Shown here one piece after another: positions 55,228 to 61,567 of a stretch of DNA of 64,000 nucleotides (positions are counted from its first letter, which is position 1; every line of letters starts with the position of its first letter). Under the pieces are notes generated by a model. The model did no database searches and was not told the DNA's origin. It saw only the letters and a list, made by a program, of their open reading frames with translations. Source of the stretch: an uncultured Alphaproteobacteria bacterium. Its GTDB lineage: Bacteria > Pseudomonadota > Alphaproteobacteria > Thalassobaculales > Thalassobaculaceae. Location of the stretch: NCBI GenBank assembly GCA_937776645.1, contig CALMRI010000002.1, positions 62,001-126,000 of the forward strand. Direction: 5' to 3'. Made by a program: the position numbers and the translations under genes.

Positions 55228-55810
55228 TTATAGCTTTTCCCTGAGCGCCTCGTAAGGCGTCTTTCCGTTGTGGGCGCCGTGTGGTCTGGCGAGGTTGTAA
55301 AGTCGCTCCCATTCAGCAAGTTCGTCCCCGAGATCGACGTCGCCGTTGTAGCTGAGTAGCTGATAGAATTACTGCTCGTCGAATCTGCGCGAGCGCTCGG
55401 CCTTTCCACTCAACTGCAGCGAACTCAGCTTGATATAGGCATGCCGAATGCCTTTGTCCTCGACGTGTCAGTGGGACCTGACCTGGAACTCATGCCCGTT
55501 GTTGGTGCGGATCTCGCGGATCCGAAATGGGAATGTGCCAATCACATGGTCGACAAAGTCGATAGCGTTTGCCTGGGTGTGTCGTCCGTAGGTCTTGAGA
55601 GAACGGACGTGTGTCGCATCGTCGATGGCAGTGTACTGGAGCCGACGGGCCTTCTTGCCGCCTTTTTCATTGAATATCAGAAATTTGACGGCCATCTGGA
55701 TAGGGCGGCCAGGGGCCTGCTTGTTGTAGCGCTTCGTGTGCATCTTGCGCACACGGGTGCCTCTCGGTAGCCGGCTCAAGCCATTTCGACACCGACCTCT
55801 TATTGGCCAG
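55228..55810 (-). pseudogene. IS481-family transposase remnant
   Basis: The minus-strand sequence from about 55,810 reads NGLSRLPRGTRVRKMHTKRY, PGRPIQMAVKFL, RLQYTAIDDATHVRSLK, FPFRIREIRTNNGHEFQ and then a stop. It continues in frame with KLSSLQLSGKAERSR, FDEQ-stop-FYQLLSYNGDVDL, WERLYNLARPHGAHNGKTPYEALREKL and TAA at 55228-55230. This is the catalytic and C-terminal part of an IS481 transposase, with the N-terminal part missing. The first Asp of the DDE triad is mutated (QMAVKF instead of QxDVKF), and two in-frame stops are present. It is dead. Confidence 0.88.
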
Positions 55811-56202: not shown

Positions 56203-57000
56203 GTGCGTCAGAAACTCGGATCATCCGAGCGGCGGGCTTGCAAAACGATCGGCGTGGCACGGTCCACACAGCGCTATGAGGCATCCCCTGAAAATGATGA
56301 CAGCCTTCGGCTGGCTTTGATCAGATTGGCAAAGCAGTATGGCCGCTATGGTTACAGGAAGATTGCCGCGTTACTCCGCATTGAAGGCTGGCAAGTCAAT
56401 CACAAGAAGGTAGAGCGGCTGTGGAGGGAAGAGGGTCTCCAGATACCGCAACGTCACAGGAAGCGGAAGCGCCTCTATCACAAGGACAGCTCTATCATCC
56501 GGCTGCGCCCCAAATATCGGAACCATATCTGGAGCATAGATTTCGTCCATGACAAGCTGGCCAACGGCCGGCCCTATAAAATGTTGACCGTGCTGGATGA
56601 ATACACCCGCGAAGCTCTGTGCGTGGCCGTGAGGACTCGAATGGGCAATGCCGAGGTTCTGGAAGCCCTCTATCCGCTCTTCTTGAAACACGGCAGACCA
56701 GAGTTCATCAGATCAGACAATGGTCCTGAGTTCATCGCAGAGAACTTTCAGACCTGGCTTACCAAGGTTGGGATCAAGCCCATCCGTATCTATCCGGGGA
56801 GCCCCTGGGAGAACGGATACAACGAACGCTTCAACGGCACTCTGCGCAGGGAGGTTCTCAATGCAGAGTGGTTCACATCAATCAGACAGGCTCAAATCGT
56901 CATCGAAACTTGGCTGAAACAGTACAATCACATCCGCCCGCATCAGGCTCTGAACATGCGTCCACCGATGCCCGAGACCCTATCAGAAAGTGGTACATAG
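56203..57000 (+). CDS. IS3-family transposase OrfB (DDE integrase core)
   Basis: The frame is intact from GTG 56203, about 265 residues, and is most likely expressed by -1 frameshifting from OrfA. Pieces: the HTH_21 domain YGRYGYRKIAALLRIEGW and KKVERLWREEGLQIPQR, then the rve core with the DDE residues D in WSIDFVHD, D in IRSDNGPEF and E in YNERFNGTLRRE. The C terminus HIRPHQALNMRPP is standard for IS3 OrfB. All catalytic residues remain, so the element may be active. Confidence 0.93.
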   Translation: MRQKLGSSERRACKTIGVARSTQRYEASPENDDSLRLALIRLAKQYGRYGYRKIAALLRIEGWQVNHKKVERLWREEGLQIPQRHRKRKRLYHKDSSIIRLRPKYRNHIWSIDFVHDKLANGRPYKMLTVLDEYTREALCVAVRTRMGNAEVLEALYPLFLKHGRPEFIRSDNGPEFIAENFQTWLTKVGIKPIRIYPGSPWENGYNERFNGTLRREVLNAEWFTSIRQAQIVIETWLKQYNHIRPHQALNMRPPMPETLSESGT

Positions 57001-57453: not shown

Positions 57454-58431
57454 TTAGTAGGGGATCAGCAAACGATTGCCCTCGAAGACCTTTTCCCCGT
57501 CAAGTTCAAGGCAGGCGTCGGTAATGACCGTGTCGTAATGGGCCGCCGCTTTGCAGGTGCCGCCGATATAGGCGCTGGTGCCTAAGGCAAGCTGAAAGCC
57601 ACCATAGACGCTTTCGTCGCTCAACATGGTGCCGTCTAGGCTGCATTTGGGGTTCATTCCCAGGCCTAGCTCGCCCAAATTATAGACGTTGGGATCGTTG
57701 AAACTGGCGAGCAGGTCCCGGAATTTCACCGCCTCCGGCCCACCTTCGATGGAAACAGCCAGGCCTTTTTCAAAGATGATTTCGACAAATTGTTTTTCGA
57801 TCAGCGCGACGCCGGGGATGCTGGCATTGACCACGATCCGCCCCTCGGCGGTTCCTTCGACCGGGGCCAGGCTCGACTCCAGACAGTAGCCAGCTGAAAT
57901 ATCCTTAGTGTTGACGAAGCCGTTCAGTGAGCGGCCTTCTCGCCCGGCGATACTCATCGTGATGTCGGTTCCGTCCTTTGACCAGACACGCGCCCGCTCG
58001 GCCTTGGTGAGCGCAGCCGCAACGGCGTCGATTTCCGCTCGAAGCGCCGTGAAGTCGGCATCCCAACCGGCCGCCAGAAAGAAATTATCACTATCGGATT
58101 CAGGCAACACCATGACTTTCGTGCCGCAGAGTTGGGCGTCAAGACGGGCCTGGGTATGGGCGATGTTCTGGTAGGCTAGGCCGATAACCAGGTCGGTGGC
58201 CTTCATCGCTTCGCCGACCACCGGTGACAGTTGTTTGCCGTGGTACTTGCTGGGGGTCATTTGCATCGTTGTCACCCTGGCGCCAACTTCGTCGGCGGCG
58301 ATCGCCAAGGGCTCAACATTGGCGGTGGTCAACGGGTCATGCAGGATAAGAACCTCCATATCCTTTTCTGCCCCGCCCAGAAGCTGAACCGCTTTTCGGG
58401 CGGCGGACATTTTCATCAACGTCGAAATCAT
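57454..58431 (-). CDS. NicX/M29 aminopeptidase-like metal-dependent hydrolase or dioxygenase
   Basis: A 325-residue protein with the shape of the leucyl aminopeptidase (M29, AmpS)/2,5-dihydroxypyridine dioxygenase (NicX) group. Visible features: VLILHDPLTTANVEPLAIAA, DLVIGLAYQNIAHTQARLDA, AEGRIVVNASIPG, SIEGGPEAVKFRDLLASF, NDPNVYNLGELGLGMNPKC and a C-terminal AHYDTVITDACLELDGEKV. The Glu and His residues in ELGLGMN and AAHYD correspond to metal-binding positions in relatives. It may cleave a ring or an amide, and the sequence does not decide between the two. It is separated from the DUF35 gene by a terminator. Confidence 0.75.
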   Translation of the reverse strand: MISTLMKMSAARKAVQLLGGAEKDMEVLILHDPLTTANVEPLAIAADEVGARVTTMQMTPSKYHGKQLSPVVGEAMKATDLVIGLAYQNIAHTQARLDAQLCGTKVMVLPESDSDNFFLAAGWDADFTALRAEIDAVAAALTKAERARVWSKDGTDITMSIAGREGRSLNGFVNTKDISAGYCLESSLAPVEGTAEGRIVVNASIPGVALIEKQFVEIIFEKGLAVSIEGGPEAVKFRDLLASFNDPNVYNLGELGLGMNPKCSLDGTMLSDESVYGGFQLALGTSAYIGGTCKAAAHYDTVITDACLELDGEKVFEGNRLLIPY

Positions 58432-58597
58432 CTGGCCATATCCCTAAACGTCTTGGTTGCCCGATCGGTCTCAGTAAAGTGAATGATGCTCCGGATCCCG
58501 GCACCTGGAAAGGCCGGGGCGGCGTTTTCCTTCGCCGCTGGTCTTTTCCGCGACTCTGCATGGCAAAGGCCGAGCGAAAACTTCCGGTCGGTGAAAC

Positions 58598-58629
58598 CAA
58601 AACGCCCCGGATAATGCCGGGGCGTTTGG
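58598..58629 (-). terminator. Rho-independent terminator after the DUF35 gene
   Basis: An 11-bp perfect stem AAACGCCCCGG with its complement at 58617-58627, loop ATAATG, lies 22 bases beyond the DUF35 stop. On the minus strand the stem is followed by GTTTTGGTTT, a T-rich tract, as expected for an intrinsic terminator. It ends the thiolase-DUF35 transcript. Confidence 0.8.
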
Positions 58630-58651
58630 TAATGACTCGGTTAGCCCATGA

Positions 58652-59050
58652 TCAAGCCGGCTTGAACGTTGGCACCGGGGCGCCGTCTTCATCAGCCGTC
58701 GGGGAGAATTTCAGCTCCACCTTTTGACCGATCGACAAGGCGTCGAGGTCCGCCTCGATGATGTTGGTCATCATTGTTGGCCCATCGTCCAGGGTCACAT
58801 AAGCGATGGCGTAGGGTGGGTCGACCCGACGCAGAACGCTGTAGGAATAGATCTGGCCCTTGCCGGAGGACTGCACCAGCCCGACGTCGCTGCTGCCGCA
58901 ATGCGGGCACATGCCCCTTGGGTAGTAATGCTTCTCGCCGCAGGATTTGCAGCTACCGATCATCAACTTGCCAGTCTTTGCCGCGGCCCAGAAGGCCTCG
59001 GTATCGGGATCGGACTCGGGAGTCGGGAAGATTCGTTGCTTGACGCTCAT
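58652..59050 (-). CDS. Zn-ribbon OB-fold protein (DUF35)
   Basis: A 132-residue protein with a rubredoxin-like zinc ribbon (CKSCGEKHYYPRGMCPHCGS, two CxxC pairs) followed by an OB-fold (GQIYSYSVLRRVDPPYAIAYV, SIGQKVELKFSP). DUF35 proteins bind acyl-CoA and complex with thiolase-fold enzymes. The start at 59050 is five bases downstream of the thiolase-fold gene stop, the standard operon order, so this is almost certainly the partner of that protein. Confidence 0.93.
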   Translation of the reverse strand: MSVKQRIFPTPESDPDTEAFWAAAKTGKLMIGSCKSCGEKHYYPRGMCPHCGSSDVGLVQSSGKGQIYSYSVLRRVDPPYAIAYVTLDDGPTMMTNIIEADLDALSIGQKVELKFSPTADEDGAPVPTFKPA

Positions 59051-59055
59051 CAGTC

Positions 59056-60225
59056 TTACTCCCGTTCCATGATCACGGTGGAGGCGCCGTGGCGCGTGCC
59101 GAGCGAACCGCCGGTGCCGTGGGCCAATGCCAGATCACAATTGGCGACCTGCACTGCCGGATGCGCTTCGCCGCGTAGCTGACGCACGGCCTCTACAACC
59201 TTGGTGAGGCCGCCGCGATTGGCCGGGTGGTTGTTGCAGAGCCCGCCACCATCGGTGTTGAACGGCAATTTTCCGGTGCCGGCGATCAGGTTGCCGTCGG
59301 AGACGAAAGCGCCGCCCTTACCCTTTTCGCAGAACCCGAGATCCTCAAGCTGTATCAGAACGGTGATAGTGAAACTGTCATAGATTGAGGCGTATTTCAT
59401 GTCACTTGGCTTGACCTTGCCCTCCTCGAAGGCGGTCGCGCCAGAGAAACGGGCGCCGGAATAAGTGAGATCCACCTTGCCGCCCATCTGCCCCTTCGGC
59501 GCCTCGCCAACACCCAGCACCTTGACCAGCGGGCGCTTGAGCGACTTGGCGATTTCCGGCGAGGTTACGATGATTGCGCCGCCGCCGTCGCTGATCACAC
59601 AACAATCGAGCCGGTGCAGCGGGTCGGAGATCATCGGCGAACTCACCACTTCTTCGACCGTCACCACGTTGCGCAGCATCGCATGCTCGTTGTGCTGAGC
59701 ATGGTGCGAAGCCGCGACCTTGATCCAGGCGAGTTGCTCGCTCGTGGTGCCATATTCGTGCATGTGGCGCATGGCGCACATGGCGTACATGTTGACCACC
59801 GTGGGGCCGAACGGGAACTCGAACGCCACGTCGGGCGAGCTGCTTCCATAGTTACGCGGCGCCGTGCCGGTCGCCATTCCCTCGGCACGAGGCCGACCGG
59901 CCAAGGTAATTAGCGCCACCGAACACTTGCCCAATGCGATGGCCTCGGCCGCGTGGCCGACATGCATCAGATAAGATGAGCCGCCGCTTTCCGTCGTGTC
60001 TATATGGCGCAAATTCAACCCCATATAGTCGATCATCGATAGGGCGCCGAGGCCGGGCACGTCACCGGCGCAGAAATAGCCGTCGACGTCGTTTTTGCTC
60101 AACCCAGCATCGGCGAGCGCGCCAAGCGCGGACTCCGCATGCAGCTGGGCCAGTGATTTATCCACCGCCTTGCGAGTAGGATGTTCATACACCCCGGCGA
60201 TATAGGCTTTTCCGTTGATGCTCAT
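59056..60225 (-). CDS. Thiolase-fold protein lacking the usual catalytic Cys (SCP-x/Ltp-like)
   Basis: A 389-residue thiolase-superfamily protein. The N terminus (AYIAGVYEHPTRKAVDKSL) and GDVPGLGALSMIDYMGL are family-like. At the position where true thiolases have the nucleophilic Cys the sequence reads TTESGGSSYLMHVGHAA, with no Cys. The second Cys, normally in a CxGGG motif, is also absent (AHGTGGSLGTRHGA). The His region is LCNNHPANRGGL. With a DUF35 partner next door, this fits the Ltp2-type group of thiolase-fold aldolases or lipid-transfer proteins better than a thiolase. Intact frame, start ATG 60225 with a GGGGAG upstream. Confidence 0.88.
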   Translation of the reverse strand: MSINGKAYIAGVYEHPTRKAVDKSLAQLHAESALGALADAGLSKNDVDGYFCAGDVPGLGALSMIDYMGLNLRHIDTTESGGSSYLMHVGHAAEAIALGKCSVALITLAGRPRAEGMATGTAPRNYGSSSPDVAFEFPFGPTVVNMYAMCAMRHMHEYGTTSEQLAWIKVAASHHAQHNEHAMLRNVVTVEEVVSSPMISDPLHRLDCCVISDGGGAIIVTSPEIAKSLKRPLVKVLGVGEAPKGQMGGKVDLTYSGARFSGATAFEEGKVKPSDMKYASIYDSFTITVLIQLEDLGFCEKGKGGAFVSDGNLIAGTGKLPFNTDGGGLCNNHPANRGGLTKVVEAVRQLRGEAHPAVQVANCDLALAHGTGGSLGTRHGASTVIMERE

Positions 60226-60332: not shown

Positions 60333-60400
60333 AGGCGTCCCTTTAAAGAAATCCGGCCCAGAACACAGGCGTCCCTTTAAAGAAATCCGGCCCAGAACAA
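60333..60400. repeat. 34-bp tandem duplication covering the 3' end of the lactonase-like gene
   Basis: Two adjacent copies of a unit beginning AGGCGTCCCTTTAAAGAAAT start at 60333 and 60367 and agree over 33 bases. The right copy contains the last codons and the stop (60377-60379) of the minus-strand lactonase-like gene, so the left copy is a duplicated gene tail just beyond the stop. The perfect identity points to recent replication slippage or an assembly artefact. Confidence 0.85.
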
Positions 60401-61567
60401 CAGTTGATCCTGTTCCGGAAACTCGATCATTCCAGTCTCCTTGAGGGTGCCATCGCCAGCGATCTGGTAGGTGACCAGACTGAGCGGCGCTTGGCGCTCG
60501 GCGCCATCGGCGCTGACCTTGGGAGCCGCCTCGGAGTTCGCCGCCACCAGCATCCGGCCGGATGCCTCGATGGAGAAGGTCCGGGGCAGGTGGCCATGGG
60601 TTGGCGCGTGCTGGATGGCGGCCGGCTGGCCGGTATTCTGATCGACGGCGAAAACCGCGATGCTGTCCTCACCTTCCGGCGCCGCCGGTCCCAGTGAACT
60701 CTCAAGCCGCCCATATGCCCGGTTGGAGATATAGAGGGTCTTGCCGTTGGGATGAAAATGAATACCTGACATCGCCTGGCGCGCCGGCCCGTTATTCGGG
60801 CCTTTAAGTGTCGAAATTCGGTGCAGAGCCTTGGGACAGATCGACCCGTTTTCCAGTGCGAAGACATGCAGCTCGCTCTGCCGCTCAACACCAAGGAATA
60901 GCCAGGGCTTAGTCGGGTGGAAGTCGAGATGGCGGGCGCCGAAGCCAAAGCCGCCATTCGGCTCGATCGAAGCGCGCGGTGAGAGCGTGCCATCGGCATA
61001 GCCATAAACCTTGAGGGCGCCGGGTTGCTCCGCCTTGCCGTCCTCGGCGTCGTAACCACGGCAAACTAGGATCGCCGCGTCGCCGTCGGGGGTGACCCGG
61101 ACTTGATGGCCGAAGATGCCGGCATCAAGATCGCTGGACTGCCGCACCTCATCGCCCAGGGCGCCGTCATCGCCGATTTTATGGACGGTGACAGCGCTCG
61201 GGTTGTTGTAGGCGACCAGGACATGAGCGTTCTGTCGGTCAAGAGAGAGATGCAGCGGTCGCCACCGCAGATCCCGCGCCTGCCCGAACGGCCCAATATC
61301 GCCGCTACCGGCATCGATCCGACAGGCGACCAGTTGATTTTGGTTGCCGGTCTTGCCCGGACCACCATTGCTGATCACCACATAGAAAACTGGTAAGTTC
61401 GGGTGCCGCCAGGCGTATTGGATATCGAGCGCGAAGCTCAGCGTCTGGCGCGCTGTCAGTGTCCCGGTTGCTAAATCCGCGTCATAGCGGGTCAGCACGG
61501 GGCCAATTGATGCGTAAAACGGCGCGGTGCTCCCGGATGCGGTTCCGGTCGTATTCTGTGCGGCCAA
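60377..61567 (-). CDS. Beta-propeller lactonase-like protein (Pgl/YncE-like fold)
   Basis: A 396-residue protein of the lactonase (6-phosphogluconolactonase-like) seven-bladed propeller family. Characteristic strings are NLPVFYVVISNGGPGKTGN, RDLRWRPLHLSLDRQN, VLVAYNNPSAVTVHKI, GIFGHQVRVTPDGD, GARHLDFHPTKPWLFLGVE and MSGIHFHPNGKTLYISNR. Each repeat has the H-P/D turn usual in YbhE-type enzymes. It could hydrolyse a lactone; the exact substrate is unclear. No signal peptide is visible. It is divergent from an LLM gene, with 194 gene-free bases between starts. The tail of the gene is tandemly duplicated. Confidence 0.82.
   Translation of the reverse strand: MAAQNTTGTASGSTAPFYASIGPVLTRYDADLATGTLTARQTLSFALDIQYAWRHPNLPVFYVVISNGGPGKTGNQNQLVACRIDAGSGDIGPFGQARDLRWRPLHLSLDRQNAHVLVAYNNPSAVTVHKIGDDGALGDEVRQSSDLDAGIFGHQVRVTPDGDAAILVCRGYDAEDGKAEQPGALKVYGYADGTLSPRASIEPNGGFGFGARHLDFHPTKPWLFLGVERQSELHVFALENGSICPKALHRISTLKGPNNGPARQAMSGIHFHPNGKTLYISNRAYGRLESSLGPAAPEGEDSIAVFAVDQNTGQPAAIQHAPTHGHLPRTFSIEASGRMLVAANSEAAPKVSADGAERQAPLSLVTYQIAGDGTLKETGMIEFPEQDQLLFWAGFL

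Follow-up and report, generated by a model that had tools for sequence, protein, structure and literature searches.

The closest described systems to the gene pair analyzed here are pairs of a thiolase-fold protein and a DUF35 protein. TcLtp2-ChsH2(DUF35) (PDB 6ok1) is a steroid C3 side-chain aldolase, and CtSal-Shy(DUF35) (PDB 9myr) is a bile acid C5 side-chain aldolase. In the available passages of PMC12329534, complemented for TcLtp2 by those of PMC12502768, the proven bases are Y294 of TcLtp2 and Y302 of CtSal, and the acid is Tyr344 in the former (motif YDHF, with His296) and Cys304 in the latter (motif YDCY, with Gln352). The same passages of PMC12329534 place the relevant second cysteine of SCP2-type thiolases in the HDCF motif. 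A third pair, IpfD-IpfE, whose sequences were taken from plasmid pIBU218, is responsible for the side-chain cleavage of ibuprofen-CoA dihydrodiol, and the parts of PMC9195938, PMC11347016, and PMC6063337 that were available describe the conversion of ibuprofenyl-CoA dihydrodiol to propionyl-CoA and isobutylcatechol. Besides IpfDE, pIBU218 carries a second pair (L142, 939-2503), composed of an Ltp2-like protein (YDHF, Tyr) and an OB-fold protein.

The pair studied here lies in a window of 64,000 nucleotides, i.e., the whole stretch of DNA that was analyzed. From its sequence and a structure model, it is predicted to encode a heteromeric, DUF35-dependent thiolase-fold retro-aldolase with a Tyr282/His333 (Ser284) active site, a reading to which we give a probability of about 0.7.

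The thiolase-fold protein and its DUF35 partner

Both ORFs were confirmed on the minus strand, the gene of the 389-aa thiolase-fold subunit (the query) at 59056..60225 and that of the 132-aa DUF35 partner at 58652..59050, 5 bp downstream. The query scored 738 bits against the NCBIfam profile NF006010 (PRK08142), which has a cut-off of 462, and thus belongs to this family, whose name, "thiolase domain-containing protein", gives no reaction. It also matched Thiolase_C_1 (1.6e-47), and its nearest solved structure was 4u4e (E 9.9e-88), followed by CtSal, TcLtp2, and Cys-containing thiolases. The AlphaFold2 model of this protein, based on 44 sequences, had a mean pLDDT of 78.4 and a pTM of 0.85, with pLDDT values below 50 in the loop 326-337, which holds His333, and in residues 136-144. 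As modelled, the thiolase fold is secure, but the active-site geometry is not. An earlier note on this DNA had proposed a structural comparison with Ltp2 complexes, and the outcome was in its favor: Foldseek ranked 4u4e first, the aldolases 9myr and 6ok1 right after it, and the thiolases behind them.

The adjacent DUF35 protein, which the same note had pointed out, has a zinc ribbon and an OB fold (PF12172 and PF01796; Pfam matches OB_ChsH2_C, 4.5e-17, and zf-ChsH2, 3.5e-13), and its closest PDB match was 6ok1_B, i.e., ChsH2(DUF35) (1.2e-17). The ribbon, C34-x2-C37-x10-C48-x2-C51, is encoded at 58898..58951 of the minus strand; C34 was found in 11 of 11 aligned rows, and C37, C48, and C51 in 10 of 11 each. 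Of 93 family rows, 91 had a DUF35 gene directly downstream of the thiolase gene; L075 and L088 did not, and L088 has one elsewhere in its cluster. The genome that contains the window encodes five Thiolase_C_1 proteins. Four of them are Tyr-type, each beside one of the genome's four DUF35 genes, and the fifth, the Cys-type, SCP2-like C32, is without DUF35.

At the same loci, the thiolase-fold protein was far better conserved than its own DUF35 (mostly ~80% vs. ~50% identity), and the ~80% identity was retained out to Rokubacteria and Betaproteobacteria. Among 299 genomes sampled from the window's phylum, 16 had NF006010 above the cut-off, and members were also found on actinomycete and haloarchaeal plasmids. 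The window's own genome holds a second copy, 73.3% identical, at C19; it follows a TPP-dependent enzyme, as it does in two same-genus relatives. This TPP-dependent enzyme (L138, 9575-11236), encoded directly upstream of the genome's second NF006010 pair, scored 605.5 bits against PRK06154, for which the cut-off is 607. In the open-access literature searched, no report of activity was found for any NF006010 member, and no paper was found on PRK08142, on this subfamily, or naming 4u4e.

Genomic neighborhood of the pair

The neighboring genes had been read in the earlier note as a catabolic context, and this interpretation fared reasonably for a lactonase and poorly for a NicX/M29-like gene. The beta-propeller lactonase (60377..61567, minus strand; PF10282, 3.6e-41) is a possible pathway partner. 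In 8 of 15 loci of related genomes, it was conserved directly upstream in the same orientation, and a lactonase held this upstream position in the window and in five of 80 genome-contig loci. By eye, the end of the lactonase gene is seemingly repeated just past its stop codon (60340-60400), as in a short tandem duplication.

The NicX/M29-like protein (57454-58431) had a single basis for its placement, a 4.4e-11 match to the solved NicX 7cn3; neither Pfam nor NCBIfam gave a match at 0.001. Apart from the window, its gene was found next to the pair in a single, near-identical contig, L008, which at 7153 bases is as long as the same-genus contig L146, and in one Variovorax plasmid locus a different gene is annotated as NicX-type. 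On the 3' side of DUF35, folding revealed a stable hairpin and, after it, a T-rich stretch (58596..58630, minus strand), a likely terminator; the segment 58588-58640 folded with -26.4 kcal/mol and a z of -5.15. This hairpin was not listed by a simple terminator scan, and a scan for sigma-70 promoters found none and was uninformative. Because of the 220-bp gap with its strong hairpin, and since the arrangement is not conserved, NicX is unlikely to be an operon partner, and the NicX-like neighbor is probably a separate transcription unit. Near this gene, an ORF at 56203-57000 with integrase core domains is transposase-like, and a short ORF at 55468-55779 looks by eye like a second fragment.

Around the pair in 11 annotated plasmid loci, which were our choice among 40 matches listed of 260 records and had no random-region control, we found a CoA ligase or CoA-transferase in 11, an SDR in 10, MaoC or enoyl-CoA hydratase in 9, and an acyl-CoA dehydrogenase in 6. 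Clusters from automated gene calls were left out of the counts because of wrong frames in some GC-rich loci. In four Roseomonas-type loci (L037, L044, L051, and L060), an acyl-CoA ligase comes first, followed by a hydratase, two dehydrogenases, the pair, and finally an SDR. This arrangement resembles the steroid side-chain degradation set of a dehydrogenase pair, a hydratase, and an aldolase, as given in the available part of PMC12502768. In the window, the genes adjoining the pair include no recognized ligase, acyl-CoA dehydrogenase, or hydratase, a point against the retro-aldolase reading.

Active-site residues and the thiolase-fold tree

At the nucleophile-Cys position, the query has Gly82 (codon 59980..59982, on the minus strand like all codons given here), which within TESGGSSYL aligned with the C of ACAS/ACSA in the Cys-containing thiolases 7yvy and 7pxp. 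The proposed base, Tyr282 (59380..59382), takes the position of TcLtp2 Y294 and CtSal Y302, and Ser284 (59374..59376) that of the SCP2-thiolase HDCF Cys, CtSal C304, and TcLtp2 H296. His333 (59227..59229), the proposed acid or oxyanion donor, stands at the position of TcLtp2 Y344 and CtSal Q352, and Asp325 (59251..59253) of NTDGG is Asn in 4u4e and its PRK06158-like sisters, and His in TcLtp2 and CtSal. Gly82, Tyr282, Asp283, Ser284, Phe285, Asp325, Cys330, and His333 did not vary among the 114 distinct family rows (at least 55% identity, query included, many of them close kin), and because of this identity the absence of Cys is not explained by chance or sequencing error.

The earlier claim that both thiolase cysteines are missing was thereby confirmed, and it holds whichever definition of the second Cys is taken, CxG or HDCF. 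That note had located the second Cys at GTGGSLG, the classical CxG position; Cys is indeed absent there, but the query is closer to SCP2-type thiolases, for which the relevant position is Ser284 of YDSF. It had also proposed a check for the two catalytic tyrosines of Ltp2, and in the alignment one is kept (Tyr282 for Y294) and the other, Y344, is replaced by His333. The Tyr282/His333 (Ser284) set was not found in any of the literature passages covered.

The latest tree, with 50 rows, separated 34 Tyr-type rows, none with a Cys nucleophile, from 16 others (the Cys-type and two odd ones) with a support of 100/100, and earlier trees of 48 and 50 rows gave the Tyr-type/Cys-type split at 100/99 and 100/98. 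The family rows were hand-picked in the two earlier trees and selected at 62% identity in the 100/100 tree. TcLtp2, CtSal, and IpfD were on the query's side of the split in other subclades, IpfD with a long branch and an unsure placement. Both 4u4e and a PRK06158-like group joined the NF006010 group of the query in one subclade (100/99), with TcLtp2, CtSal, and IpfD outside.

Residues and flanks were read in 80 further homologues, nearly full-length, taken in rank order, and many of them near copies. Thirty-eight were Tyr-type without Cys (37 with Gly and one not cleanly aligned), and 37 of these had DUF35 within 1.5 kb; 40 were Cys/His, seven with DUF35. The remaining two, one Ser/His and the other with Cys and neither His nor Tyr, both had DUF35, and no mixed type (Cys with Tyr, or Gly with His) was present among the 80. 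The change from Cys to Gly and from His to Tyr was probably a single evolutionary event, and therefore the row counts are not independent. In an alignment of 220 rows, all 174 Tyr-type rows had C, D, or H at 284 or H or Y at 333, and wherever 333 was Gln (10 rows), 284 was C or D; this last association (p = 4e-4 on 70% clusters) is weak because all Gln333 rows in the tree form one clade. Matches of fewer than 200 query residues and proteins shorter than 330 aa were left out. Tyr-type L187 aligned poorly, its nucleophile column reading Gln in the 80-homologue set and a gap in the 220-row alignment, where position 333 is a gap in L173. The Cys has been lost in a different way in the thiolase-fold homologue L192 (G153:C34:8154-12257), with Ser at the nucleophile position, HDAF and GHP intact, and DUF35 nearby. 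Moreover, a YENF subfamily (L195, L196, L198, and L200) has Asn at 284 and Tyr at 333, with DUF35, and its three tree rows form one clade (100/100).

Instead of retro-aldol cleavage, the query might carry out C-C bond formation or a retro-Claisen reaction with beta-ketoacyl-CoA (by non-covalent Claisen reaction, decarboxylation, or hydrolysis), but this is unlikely, as the Cys-type thiolases aligned here retain the nucleophile and HDxF, the motif His is Tyr in the query as in the proven aldolases, and the tree places it on the aldolase side. This alternative nevertheless draws on the retention of His333 of the thiolase GHP motif, on SDR and 3-hydroxyacyl-CoA dehydrogenase genes near some members, and on the solved DUF35 complexes of other thiolase-fold proteins, which include thiolases and a C-acylase; the SDR genes near relatives could yield beta-ketoacyl-CoA, suiting a thiolase, and this counts against a retro-aldolase. 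The missing canonical cysteines would also fit a non-catalytic scaffold or CoA-binding partner (a pseudo-enzyme), but the identity of the putative active-site residues Y282, S284, D325, and H333 in all family rows and the ~80% identity kept out to Rokubacteria and Betaproteobacteria make this very improbable. A thiolase with a relocated nucleophile is the least probable, since Cys330, although invariant in the 114 rows, is not at a known nucleophile position and is replaced by Ser, Gly, or Ala in the majority of rows outside the family. A serine was rejected as replacement nucleophile because Ser83 is not constant (S in 101 rows, C in 9, A in 3, and T in 1).

Proposed reaction and comparison with known systems

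The earlier note had suggested an Ltp2-type aldolase. The place in the tree, the residue pattern, the fold ranking, and the pairing of the genes all speak for a DUF35-dependent aldolase, as predicted from sequence and model, but the protein is not a strict Ltp2, with His333 for the second Tyr and a subclade of its own. With residue roles that we infer by transfer through the alignment, the substrate of the predicted retro-aldolase would be a beta-hydroxyacyl-CoA, whose beta-hydroxyl proton would be taken by Tyr282, while Gly82 would make space and provide a backbone NH. Cleavage of the Calpha-Cbeta bond would then give a ketone or aldehyde, and the acyl-CoA enolate may be held and reprotonated by His333, with the help of Ser284, in an acyl pocket shaped by DUF35; acetyl- or propionyl-CoA and a carbonyl compound would be the products. 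The substrate is probably not a steroid, a candidate left unsupported because the query belongs neither to Ltp2 proper nor to Sal proper.

More tentatively, and with slightly less than even confidence, we propose that the clade of NF006010, the PRK06158-like group, and 4u4e, in which proteins carry thiolase or acetyl-CoA acetyltransferase labels, represents a broad class of aldolases that depend on DUF35 and act on CoA esters other than steroids. As a further catalytic solution, a new Tyr base would work there together with the former thiolase His, now serving as acid, and the general acid would have shifted between 284 and 333 as subfamilies diverged. If true, the NF006010 subfamily is misnamed and its members are C-C lyases; unknown catabolic clusters would be easier to interpret, the enzymes may provide biocatalysts, and one active site would have been rebuilt in several ways once the nucleophile was lost.

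Among the known systems, the most similar is 4u4e, a putative thiolase from Sphaerobacter thermophilus described by its structure only. It is 46.6% identical to the query and likewise has Gly in place of the nucleophile, YDSF, and the His of THP; it differs in NTNGG for NTDGG and in Ser at 330. CtSal-Shy and TcLtp2-ChsH2 are like the query in Gly, the Tyr base, and the DUF35 partner (34.2% and 34.5% identity, respectively); in contrast, the query has Ser284 and His333, and so neither the YDCY Cys acid and Gln352 of Sal proper nor the YDHF His and second Tyr (Y344) of Ltp2 proper, as these are given in the passages available. IpfD (32.3% identity), with Gly, YDAF, and the DUF35-type partner IpfE, carries Tyr at the His333 position and lies elsewhere on the Tyr-type side. 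SCP2-type thiolases and benzoylsuccinyl-CoA thiolase BbsAB have the same fold, and BbsAB also a DUF35 subunit, but they keep the Cys nucleophile and HDxF where the query has Gly82 and YDSF. With the Ltp2/Sal class, the query shares the thiolase fold, Gly in place of Cys, the Tyr of YDx[FY], the DUF35 gene, and the side of the tree.
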